Of a DNA stretch of 38,717 nt, positions 9,684 through 22,102 are shown in pieces; the first letter of the stretch is position 1; each line of letters starts with the position of its first letter. Source of the DNA: an uncultured Verrucomicrobiales bacterium (GTDB taxonomy: Bacteria; Verrucomicrobiota; Verrucomicrobiia; Verrucomicrobiales; DEV007). The DNA lies in the NCBI GenBank assembly GCA_937922595.1, contig CALAIY010000032.1, forward strand, positions 1-38,717, in the 5' to 3' direction. A model generated the notes under the pieces. The model was given only the letters and a program-made list of their open reading frames with translations, searched no databases and was not told where the DNA came from. The position numbers were made by a program, and so were the translations under genes.

Positions 9684-9720
9684 TGTCTATGGAGTCAGGT
9701 AAAACGGATTTTTGTGAATT

Positions 9721-11661
9721 TTAGCGAGCGGAAGTTTTCTTTTTCCGCATTACGGAAATGAAGATTCCGACGACTGCGACGAGAAGTGGAGTGAGGGCAA
9801 CGTTGCCAGCTTTGATCCATGCGATCATGGAATTCAGCTTCTTCCGAGCGTCCTTTTGCAGCTGGCGCTGTTGCTTCATTGCTTCAGCCTGGGCTTCTTG
9901 GAATTTCTCGATCTCCTTCTGCTGCTCGGGAGTGAGGATCGTCTTTTGCGTATCGTCTTTTTGAGCCTGAAGAACATTGAGGCGAGCTTCTGCTTCTTTA
10001 CGTTTTTCATCAAGCTCGACGAGTTCCTCACGGATTTGCTCATTGGCTTCTTCCTCGAGTTCCTTAATCCGTGTGAACGGACGGATCGCAGAGGCTCGAC
10101 TACGGATCGAAACAAGGTTCGAATCACCAGCGAGGATCTCGGTCGAATTCTGGAAAAACGGGAGGTTTTGATTACGCATCTGAGCAATACGCTGGCCGAA
10201 GAAGTCCATCGTTTGGATGGCAAACTGATCGTTAATGAAATCGGAGTCACCAATAAGGATCACGATACCTTCGCCGTTTCCTTCGGTGAGCACTGCAGGC
10301 TTGGCGTCTTCTGCATCGGCAACGCCGTCTTCACCTTCTTCCGGTGCCGGTGCATCTGGGTTTTCCGGCTCACCTTCGGGGAATGCGGTGGGGAACTTAC
10401 CGGTGAGGCGAAGCGCTAGCTTTTTCTTCTCACCTGATTTTTCAAATTTCCGCATAATTTCCTGCGGGCTTTGTTGCGCCATCGTCTTGTCCGTGGTGGA
10501 CGAGGCTTCGGAGGTGTGGATGAGGACTTCTTCGTTGATCCCTTCTTTCGGCTCACCTTTGAATTCACCGGCGAAAAGGAGGAGCATATCGCTAAGACGG
10601 CTCGTGGCAGGGTCATCCTGATTGATAAAATCTCGGGTAAGTGAGAGGAGCGCTGGGTTTTCCTGACCTCCGCGAATTGGCGTGCGAAGATTGAGATCGG
10701 TCACGATCTCTTCGCCGAAGGTGTAGCCGTAAGCGGAGAGAATTTTTTCTAGGTTCGAATTTTCCGGGGCTCCACCAAGTGAGGGCTGCATCGGATTCGT
10801 CTGCTGGGACTTACTCATCTGTGCGGTGATGGAAAGCGGATCAACGCAGACCATCAACTTACCTCCCCCGAGCACGTATTGATCGATCGCGAAGAGGGCG
10901 GTGGGAGTGAACTTCCCGGTGTGAAGTAGAATAAGGACATCGATATCATCGGGGACGCGTTCGATGTCATCAGCGAGGGTGCGGACTTCGTAATCGCGCT
11001 CAAGATCTTCGTAGAAATACCACGCTGGAGTCCGCCCTCCTCCGCCCATCATTGGATTGCCGAAGCTACCGCTGATTTCGTAGGAACTTACCACAGCGAC
11101 CACGGGCTTATCCGTGCTTACGACCTGGCTGATGGCGCGCGAGACTTCGTATTCGAGCGTTTCCTGGGGAACTGCCGGAAGAAACGGGATCACTAGATTG
11201 TTCTCAAGATACGAGATTTTGAGGCCGAAGTAGTATTCACCACGTGCGCCACGCTGTGCCTGCATCCCGGCGAGGCGGGCACTATCTTCGTCGTCGGTGT
11301 CCGGCTCAGGGTTGTGGCGTTTCAGCTGGATTTTCTTGCCGCCAATCTGGGCGTATTGCTCAAGGAAACTCCCGATCCGCTCAGCGACGGTCTGAAGCTC
11401 GGTGGGAAGGATATCGGTATCGCGGGTGACGAAGTAATCGAGGGTGACGGGATCGACAACTTCATCGCTTTCATCACCGGGGATCTTTTTGATGATGGTG
11501 CGGGTGCCCTTAGAGAGGGTGTGGACTTTTTCTTCGGTGAAATCGATTCCTCCAGGAATCGCGCTGGCGATGTAATTCACCGCGACAAGAATTGCGATCA
11601 CGACGGCGAGGCCGATGGTGGAATAAAGGAAGGCCGAGGAACCTTTTTTAGGACTGCTCAT
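9721..11661 (-). CDS. GldG-like ABC transporter auxiliary protein
   Basis: 646 residues. It has an N-terminal membrane helix (about 10-33) and a large extracytoplasmic domain of the ABC_transp_aux/GldG type (about 45-500), with the characteristic DKPVVAVVSSYEISG, a Gly/Met-rich loop near residue 205 and IDVLILLHTGKFTP. A Pro/Glu/Asp linker lies at about 420-450. A long charged coiled coil (about 545-615) leads to a C-terminal helix (about 618-640) and a basic tail. GldG belongs to the ABC system needed for gliding in Bacteroidetes. Homologues in non-gliding phyla are widespread and their cargo is unknown, so the name is given by similarity only. The gene is 25 bases after the permease gene. 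Confidence 0.88.
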   Translation of the reverse strand: MSSPKKGSSAFLYSTIGLAVVIAILVAVNYIASAIPGGIDFTEEKVHTLSKGTRTIIKKIPGDESDEVVDPVTLDYFVTRDTDILPTELQTVAERIGSFLEQYAQIGGKKIQLKRHNPEPDTDDEDSARLAGMQAQRGARGEYYFGLKISYLENNLVIPFLPAVPQETLEYEVSRAISQVVSTDKPVVAVVSSYEISGSFGNPMMGGGGRTPAWYFYEDLERDYEVRTLADDIERVPDDIDVLILLHTGKFTPTALFAIDQYVLGGGKLMVCVDPLSITAQMSKSQQTNPMQPSLGGAPENSNLEKILSAYGYTFGEEIVTDLNLRTPIRGGQENPALLSLTRDFINQDDPATSRLSDMLLLFAGEFKGEPKEGINEEVLIHTSEASSTTDKTMAQQSPQEIMRKFEKSGEKKKLALRLTGKFPTAFPEGEPENPDAPAPEEGEDGVADAEDAKPAVLTEGNGEGIVILIGDSDFINDQFAIQTMDFFGQRIAQMRNQNLPFFQNSTEILAGDSNLVSIRSRASAIRPFTRIKELEEEANEQIREELVELDEKRKEAEARLNVLQAQKDDTQKTILTPEQQKEIEKFQEAQAEAMKQQRQLQKDARKKLNSMIAWIKAGNVALTPLLVAVVGIFISVMRKKKTSAR

Positions 11662-20239: not shown

Positions 20240-21079
20240 ATGCCTGCCCCCCTCCCCTCCTTCACCCTCGGTAAATACACGCTCGCCGAAAACGAAGCCC
20301 CCGCGCTCCCACTCTTCATCCTCGGCCCATGCGCCATCGAATCCCCAGATTTCACCTGGGAAATGGCACGCGAAATCAAAGCCATCGCAGAAAAGGTAGG
20401 CGTCTCCTTCGTCTTCAAAGCCTCCTACGACAAAGCCAATCGCACCTCCGTAGGCTCCTATCGCGGCGTGGGCATTGAAGACGGCTGCAAGCTCCTCGGC
20501 GAAATCGGCGAGGACCTCGGCGTCCCCGTCACCACCGATATCCACCTCCCCGAGCACGCAGCCATCGCCGGCGAGCACATCGATCTGCTCCAGATTCCCG
20601 CCTTCCTCTGCCGCCAAACTGATCTCCTCGAAGCTGCCGCAAAAACCGGTCGCGCCGTGAACGTGAAAAAAGGCCAGTTTCTCGCCCCCTGGGATATGAA
20701 GCCAGTGCTCGAAAAAATGGCACACTTCGGCTGCGAAAACGTCCTCCTCACCGAGCGCGGCACCACCTTCGGCTACAACAACCTCGTCGCCGACATGCGC
20801 TCGCTCCCCTGGATGCGCGACCTCGGCGCCCGCGTCTGCTTCGATGCCACCCACTCCGTCCAGCGCCCCGGCGGCCTCGGCGGAACCACCGGAGGCGATG
20901 GAGCCCTCGCCCCCGTCCTCGCAAAATCCGCAGTAGCAGCCGGCGTAGACGCCATCTTCATGGAAACCCACAAAGACCCCGCCAACGCCCTCTCAGACGG
21001 ACCAAACCAAGTCCCCCTAGCCAATCTCGAAAAAACACTCACCACCCTCGCCGCCGTCCACCGCGCCGCCCATGGGTAA
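20240..21079 (+). CDS. kdsA: 3-deoxy-8-phosphooctulonate synthase (KDO-8-P synthase)
   Basis: 279 residues, full length. Motifs: FILGPCAIESPDFTWEMA, FKASYDKANRTSVGSYRGVG (phosphate/PEP binding), DIHLPEHA, LQIPAFLCRQTDLLEAA, VNVKKGQFLAPWDMKPV and FDATHSVQRPGGLGGTTGGD. It condenses phosphoenolpyruvate with arabinose 5-phosphate to make KDO-8-phosphate for lipopolysaccharide, which shows a Gram-negative envelope. C31 in GPCAIES is at the position of the metal-ligand Cys of the metal-dependent class (Aquifex type), where the E. coli enzyme has Asn, so this is probably a metal-dependent KdsA. It follows the epimerase by 91 bases. Confidence 0.95.
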   Translation: MPAPLPSFTLGKYTLAENEAPALPLFILGPCAIESPDFTWEMAREIKAIAEKVGVSFVFKASYDKANRTSVGSYRGVGIEDGCKLLGEIGEDLGVPVTTDIHLPEHAAIAGEHIDLLQIPAFLCRQTDLLEAAAKTGRAVNVKKGQFLAPWDMKPVLEKMAHFGCENVLLTERGTTFGYNNLVADMRSLPWMRDLGARVCFDATHSVQRPGGLGGTTGGDGALAPVLAKSAVAAGVDAIFMETHKDPANALSDGPNQVPLANLEKTLTTLAAVHRAAHG

Positions 21080-21345
21080 CTAACGAGCGTTTAAGCTCTC
21101 AGCTGCCATTGCCCCTCCGCTAAAGGACGTTTCCCTGCCGGGTGCAGTAACGTCTTCTTCGTATGAGAACGATGAAAGCCAAGGCGCCTCGCCCGCTTTC
21201 ACAAAAGAGATGGTGCACTCACGCCACCCCCACGATCTCAACTAAGATCTCGCCTAAATAGACGTTTTACCCTTGAAGCTAGGTGGCTCGCCCGCTAGCC
21301 TAAAACCCGGGATTTAGCGCTCTCTGCGCCATTTCCCACGCAAAA
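21080..21345. repeat. Repeated foldable units upstream of prepilin-type gene
   Basis: The 293-base gap between kdsA and the prepilin-type gene contains diverged copies of one unit. The best block, G-Y-G-S-CTCGCCCGCT, occurs at about 21185-21198 and 21283-21296. A second block (TTTA, GCTCTC, GC, GCCATT, CCC) occurs at 21091-21115 and 21313-21337, with a weaker copy at 21208-21233. ACGTTT precedes the first block in both full units. Each full unit can form a stem around CTCGCCC: GAAAGC/GCTTTC at 21174-21179 with 21195-21200, and GCTAG/CTAGC at 21278-21282 with 21295-21299. The stems differ in sequence but both pair, as expected of a selected structure. It could be a structured leader RNA of the prepilin-type gene or a dispersed repeat; the strand is undecided. 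Confidence 0.6.
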
Positions 21346-21372
21346 AAACATACATAATAAAAACCACAAGTA

Positions 21373-22044
21373 ATGAAAACAACCAAACGCAATCGGGGTG
21401 GATTCACCCTGATCGAGCTCCTGGTCGTGATTACCATCATCGCGACCCTCGCAGGCCTCTCCGTTCCCGTCTTCGCACGAGTACAGGAAAACGGCAATAT
21501 CACCAAAGGCTCAAACAATGCCCGCCAGATTTATCTCGCATGCAGCCTCTACTCCAATGACAACGACGGTCGCTTCCCTCGCGGAGACAGCGCCAACGCG
21601 GCGTTCCGCAAGCTCGTCAAGGACAAGCTTATCGAGAAAGAAGACGTCTTCGGGTGCCCCGGTAGCCCTTACCTCCCCGACAACGATTTAGGAGAAGCTC
21701 CTAATTATGCCGAAGCCGTCGAATCAGGCGAAAACCACTGGATGATGGTCAATGGACTCACCTCCTCTTCTGGCGGAGCAATCCCCCTCATCTTCGAAAA
21801 CGCTCTTGATACAAACACCAACCCACAGTGGGACGGAGCCGCCGCTGGACAGACCCTGCGCGGACGCACCTGGTCCAATGGCCGCGTCATCATCTGCACT
21901 GGTGATGGATCTGTCGCTACCTACAAGACCGACAATCCTGATGGAGTCGGATCGATCGAGCCTGACGGTAAGAGCGACAAAAATGTCTTCACCAAAAAGA
22001 ACATCAGAAGCGTACTCGACGTCCTAGGCGACGGTAACGAGTAA
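21373..22044 (+). CDS. Prepilin-type (pseudopilin) protein
   Basis: 223 residues. A short basic leader ends at the type IV prepilin peptidase site, RGGFTLIELLVVITIIATLA: cleavage after Gly, Phe methylation, then Glu at mature position 5 within a hydrophobic helix (about 12-32). The remainder is a soluble head with YSNDNDGRFPRGDSA, a pattern of the many verrucomicrobial/planctomycete pseudopilin-like secreted proteins, and a Gly/Asp-rich tail. No pilus assembly genes are nearby, so it is probably one of many dispersed copies using a shared secretion system. It ends at a strong terminator and starts behind the repeated units. Confidence 0.9.
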   Translation: MKTTKRNRGGFTLIELLVVITIIATLAGLSVPVFARVQENGNITKGSNNARQIYLACSLYSNDNDGRFPRGDSANAAFRKLVKDKLIEKEDVFGCPGSPYLPDNDLGEAPNYAEAVESGENHWMMVNGLTSSSGGAIPLIFENALDTNTNPQWDGAAAGQTLRGRTWSNGRVIICTGDGSVATYKTDNPDGVGSIEPDGKSDKNVFTKKNIRSVLDVLGDGNE

Positions 22045-22065
22045 TCCTTCCTCTCTCACTCACAA

Positions 22066-22102
22066 GCCGGCCACTGGATATCCTCCAGTGGCCGGCTTTT
22101 TT
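22066..22102 (+). terminator. Rho-independent terminator of the prepilin-type gene
   Basis: A 13-base perfect stem (22066-22078 with 22084-22096, starting GCCGGCCACTGGA) with a 5-base loop is followed by six T. It lies 21 bases after the prepilin-type stop codon. Its outer AA/TT bases make it partly bidirectional, so it may also stop the convergent VOC gene. Confidence 0.93.

Follow-up and report, generated by a model that had tools for sequence, protein, structure and literature searches.

The 293-base gap studied here (21080-21372) separates two plus-strand genes in a 38,717-nucleotide stretch of DNA, hereafter the window. The upstream gene (20240-21079) is kdsA, encoding 3-deoxy-8-phosphooctulonate synthase (KDO-8-P synthase), and is matched over cut-off by the NCBIfam equivalogs NF003543 and TIGR01362; the downstream gene (21373-22044) is a prepilin-type, pseudopilin-like gene with matches to PF07963 (33.2 bits) and TIGR02532 (27 bits), each over its cut-off. 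Within the gap we distinguish (i) a partial block, GCTCTCAGCTGCCATTGCCCC, on the plus strand at 21094-21115; (ii) unit 1, at 21104-21219; and (iii) unit 2, a weaker relative of unit 1, on the plus strand at 21278-21345. ARAGORN detected no tRNA or tmRNA in the window, and Tandem Repeats Finder reported no repeat in 21000-21450.

Each of the two units contains the core CTCGCCCGCT, which has exact matches at 21188 and 21287 and at no third site in the window. In unit 1, a GAAAGC/GCTTTC stem pairs 21174-21179 with 21195-21200; in unit 2, a GCTAG/CTAGC stem pairs 21278-21282 with 21295-21299. Both cores, both stems, and the GCTCTC/GCCATT/CCC blocks lie where the original prediction had placed them. 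The likeness of the two units over ∼65 columns (local score 37) was equalled by no shuffle out of 2000 and by two of the 1442 real pieces of the window, and corresponds to a probability of ∼0.002 per 200 nucleotides in simulated sequence of the genome's composition; a looser end-to-end alignment was less clear, scoring 62 where 2000 shuffles averaged 42.5 and rose to 66.5 at most. A GCTCTC/GCCATT/CCC block had been described as common to the repeats. This holds for 21094-21115 against 21318-21337 (score 28, reached by 0 of 2000 shuffles), whereas the stretch after unit 1 resembles neither block significantly (21% and 13% of shuffles scored as well). The right half of the partial block at 21094-21115 lies inside the insertion-sequence-like stretch described below. 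Unit 2 also contains a near-perfect palindrome, CTAAAACCCGGGATTTAG, at 21300-21317, which is absent from unit 1.

A search of the window's own genome with the gap identified five other places, with E-values from 3.6e-5 to 0.003, all of them on 21186-21219 (minus strand). Besides these, it returned the window's own sequence and a further 13 matches whose E-values were 0.4 or worse. Identity was 86-88% throughout, over 34 bases in the C105, C73, C18, and C45 copies and over 32 bases in the C52 copy. This segment, comprising a terminal repeat and adjoining bases, is the best conserved part of the stretch, and a 23-base tip is exact in six places of the genome. The left end of the C45 copy aligned to the minus strand of the window from 21219 to 21104 with a score of 72 (shuffles at most 39; 0 of 1000 as high), and the alignment past the first 36 bases still scored 35 (shuffles at most 28; 0 of 1000), indicating that the sub-terminal DNA is collinear with the element. 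Moreover, a profile of the five other copies, built with the window left out, matched unit 1 over 21120-21219 with 37.2 bits (E 1.4e-10); on shuffles of unit 2 it gave at most 0.8 bits. The likeness continues beyond the terminal repeat into the transposase leader, with the blocks in the same order. We delimit the relic (terminal repeat, sub-terminal DNA, and transposase leader) at 21104-21222 on the minus strand, of which 21220-21222 are assigned by position only, the five other copies having GCT and the window GTG. Taken together, 21104-21219 very probably represents the left end of an IS256-family insertion sequence (IS), most likely surviving from an old insertion as inert DNA rather than acting as a regulatory RNA.

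The C45 copy resembles known members of the IS256 family (Mutator-type transposase; PF00872 and NF033543) in several respects. It measures ∼1.38 kb by our own count and carries three pieces of a PF00872 transposase, one of which scored 157.1 bits with NF033543 against a cut-off of 150; its terminal repeats are imperfect, with 20 of 28 bases alike between the two ends (also our own count). By comparison, ISPaes3 of this family measures 1393 bp and has repeats of 39/27 and an 8-base duplication (PMC3281130). The C105, C73, and C18 copies consist of the left end and leader, with no transposase match, and the C52 copy has the tip followed by a C-terminal piece of the transposase. Given these contents, all of the copies found are broken, and an intact copy of the element was not found in the window's own genome. 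In the C73 copy (G000, 9684-9897), an insert of ∼60 bases with the inverted repeat CCGTTCCGGCACAGG/CCTGTGCCGGAACGG stands between tip and leader.

Unlike an IS256-family element, the window has one end only and lacks both a transposase and a second repeat. The C45 right end matched the tip of unit 1 at 19 of 24 bases (score 28, reached by 10 of 1000 shuffles). Its scores against the rest of the gap, where a second, inverted terminal repeat was sought, were reached by 458-934 of 1000 shuffles. PF00872 had no match on the window's contig, C32; its matches in the genome lie on C45, C52, and C87. Since the gap holds no second inverted repeat, we regard unit 1 as a relic and not as an element, and because the window holds one end only, neither a target duplication nor a second repeat can be shown there. 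Inspection by eye of the DNA flanking the C45 and C52 copies showed no plain target duplication of 8-9 bases. The relic is also comparable to MITE-type dispersed repeats, in that it is short, lacks a coding gene, and is related to an insertion sequence of the same genome. A MITE by definition has both terminal repeats, however, and here one end only is seen.

The tip is confined to the window's own genome among the genomes searched. With up to two mismatches allowed, none of 386 further genomes from the phylum contained the 23-base tip. Within the same family, 73 other genomes were searched and gave no match over the tip; in two of these, weak matches 23-28 bases long lay further inside (E 0.001-0.003). 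A tip pattern run over genome contigs gave six matches, with ∼2 expected by chance (own estimate). Five lie inside long open frames, two of these being the same gene in two archaea, and one, L070, lies between genes; on reading, no transposase was noticed. Because it occurs in its own genome only, among those searched, the tip is better treated as a local marker than as a regulator to chase. Of the two readings offered by the original prediction, a tandem cis-acting RNA and a lineage-specific dispersed repeat, the latter is the better one. It stands for unit 1, which can be named as an IS256-family left end with five other copies in the genome.

Unit 2 shows no direct match to the insertion-sequence copies. 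Unit 1, used as a profile, scored 3.8 bits on unit 2 (reached by 1 of 1000 shuffles); the five-copy profile gave no match there, and unit 2 aligned to the C45 left end with a score of 16, which was reached by 696 of 1000 shuffles. We also considered unit 2 as the right end of the insertion sequence, and rejected this. In a multiple alignment, the block order of unit 2 is the same as that of the IS ends. Unit 2 is possibly an older and more decayed copy of the same end, which we offer as a guess.

Another account would make unit 1, unit 2, and a site at C46 copies of a small host repeat that the insertion sequence partly took up as its end. The likeness between units 1 and 2 indeed extends slightly beyond the point at which the insertion sequence ends, as does that between unit 1 and C46. 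The C46 site (G000, L117:1285-1344) lies in a short gap between an OpcA-like gene and a gene with a weak, below-cut-off match of the squalene-cyclase type. It aligned to unit 1 over 61 columns with a score of 46, which no shuffle of the site attained in 2000, and scored 21.3 bits with a covariance model of the two units (rough E 0.0014). However, scores as high arose in 6 of the 3257 stretches, each of 20 kb, that made up 65 Mb of simulated sequence, so that 0.6-1 such matches are expected per genome. As C46 was picked from the whole genome, we count it as chance rather than as a third copy, with some doubt in view of the model's E-value. Against a host repeat, further, unit 2 as a DNA query gave no second match in the genome with an E-value of 0.01 or below, and beyond C46 the two-unit model gave matches there at only about 13 bits or less. 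We consider such an origin extremely improbable.

The original prediction took compensating changes to suggest selection on structure, and in its first reading the tandem units would act as a structured RNA within the prepilin leader and control expression of the gene. Like cis-acting RNAs and riboswitches in Rfam, the gap has hairpins upstream of a gene and on the coding strand. Two stems flank one common core, and the units are alike beyond chance. The seven-pair stem of unit 1 is, moreover, uncommon, as stems this long arose in 0.3% of shuffled flanks and at 0.2% of window positions, and this speaks for the prediction; the five-pair stem of unit 2 arose in 3.6% of shuffled flanks and at 3.2% of window positions. 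As a single strand, the gap folds mildly better than its shuffles (z -2.2, 6 of 200, on the plus strand; z -1.5, 14 of 200, on the minus strand). Both stems exist, but the compensating changes that were said to relate them were not confirmed. In a sequence alignment of the units, a single stem pair of the six is free of gaps at both of its positions in both units, and none of the six shows a double change, in an alignment of two sequences only. The 3' arms of the two stems align and the 5' arms are not homologous, so that the stems line up only when the 5' arm is shifted freely. Since two sequences permit a claim of compensating changes only where the same columns pair, covariation is not borne out. 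Nor is the stem kept among the five other IS-end copies, in which the local fold varies from copy to copy. The hairpin around CTCGCCC may be a product of chance, or perhaps a transposon feature of the sub-terminal DNA. More generally, two copies of a transposon end, one of them possibly decayed, can mimic a covarying repeat.

Searches for relatives point away from an RNA as well. None of 4227 Rfam families matched the window, and none matched 21000-21450 at E up to 5. The two-unit covariance model, which scored 84 and 76 bits on its own units, reached at best 23 bits in other genomes, and 25 of 188 gave a match at E up to 0.1 against ∼19 expected (E-values being rough), which places the searched relatives at chance level. 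The 18 foreign matches that were assessed (from 27 matches, with 19 loci fetched, of which L093 was too short for the assessment) each overlap an open frame of at least 100 codons, an overlap that is weak evidence in GC-rich DNA. In the window's own genome, the model gave four further matches at E up to 10: C46, C142 (13.1 bits), and the IS ends at C73 and C52. When it was run on the loci at hand, the IS ends at C73, C52, C18, and C105 scored weakly (8.0-13.5 bits), and the C45 copy gave no match. In order-wide DNA searches, which scored the best 2-3 candidates per genome only and could miss weak copies, unit 1 had matches with E-values of at most 0.01 in 3 of 287 other genomes, and unit 2 had matches in 4 of 287. 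Two of the three unit 1 matches lie in open frames of at least 150 codons, and the third, G093, near a contig end, lies in none so long; three of the four unit 2 matches likewise lie in frames of at least 150 codons, and the fourth, G026, with 29 bases, lies in none of at least 120. The genomes searched include none of the same genus as that of the window. The core pattern, at up to two mismatches, occurred at 24 places in 22 of 238 other genomes, compared with ∼59 for the reversed control (own count), and its exact matches were the two in the window only. A link to prepilin genes, also part of the prediction, did not clearly emerge. Among the regions upstream of 29 prepilin homologues, 4 resembled the gap at 0.05 or below (∼1.5 expected; lowest 0.005), which amounts to no clear likeness, and kdsA and yebC stood beside 0 of the 29, most loci covering ∼1.5 kb on each side. 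With unit 1 derived from a transposon, we judge an RNA that controls the prepilin gene to be very improbable, and the unit 1 candidate to be settled as transposon DNA.

We propose that the space between kdsA and the prepilin gene once received an IS256-family element whose transposase read in the direction of kdsA, and that this element would since have lost all but ∼120 bases of its left end. If this relic has any activity at present, it would most likely alter transcription into the prepilin gene to a small extent, for instance if the outward-facing IS end provided part of a promoter. The hexamer TTCACA (21198-21203) points towards the prepilin gene and agrees with the -35 consensus at five of six positions. 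A promoter scan restricted to the sigma-70 type, however, found no promoter-like site in 21000-21420, and the sequence has no -10-like hexamer at the right distance; the terminator scan of the same interval was likewise empty. The activation of genes close by has been described as a typical trait of the IS256 family (PMC3281130), and the terminal repeats of copy-out/paste-in elements can hold half of a fusion promoter (PMC7780238). We find a working promoter part of this kind highly unlikely, and take the relic as inert because its -35-like hexamer has no partner and the scan found no promoter. A more elaborate version, in which the host would have co-opted the IS256 end, so that it serves together with a drifted second copy as a two-hairpin leader or operator setting the pseudopilin level in one lineage, is similarly a long shot. 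The relic would gain wider interest only if the prepilin gene uses it.

Directly 3' of the prepilin gene lies a perfect 15-base inverted repeat, in which 22064-22078 pairs with 22084-22098. The full span (22064-22102) ends in a run of six T residues and resembles an intrinsic terminator.
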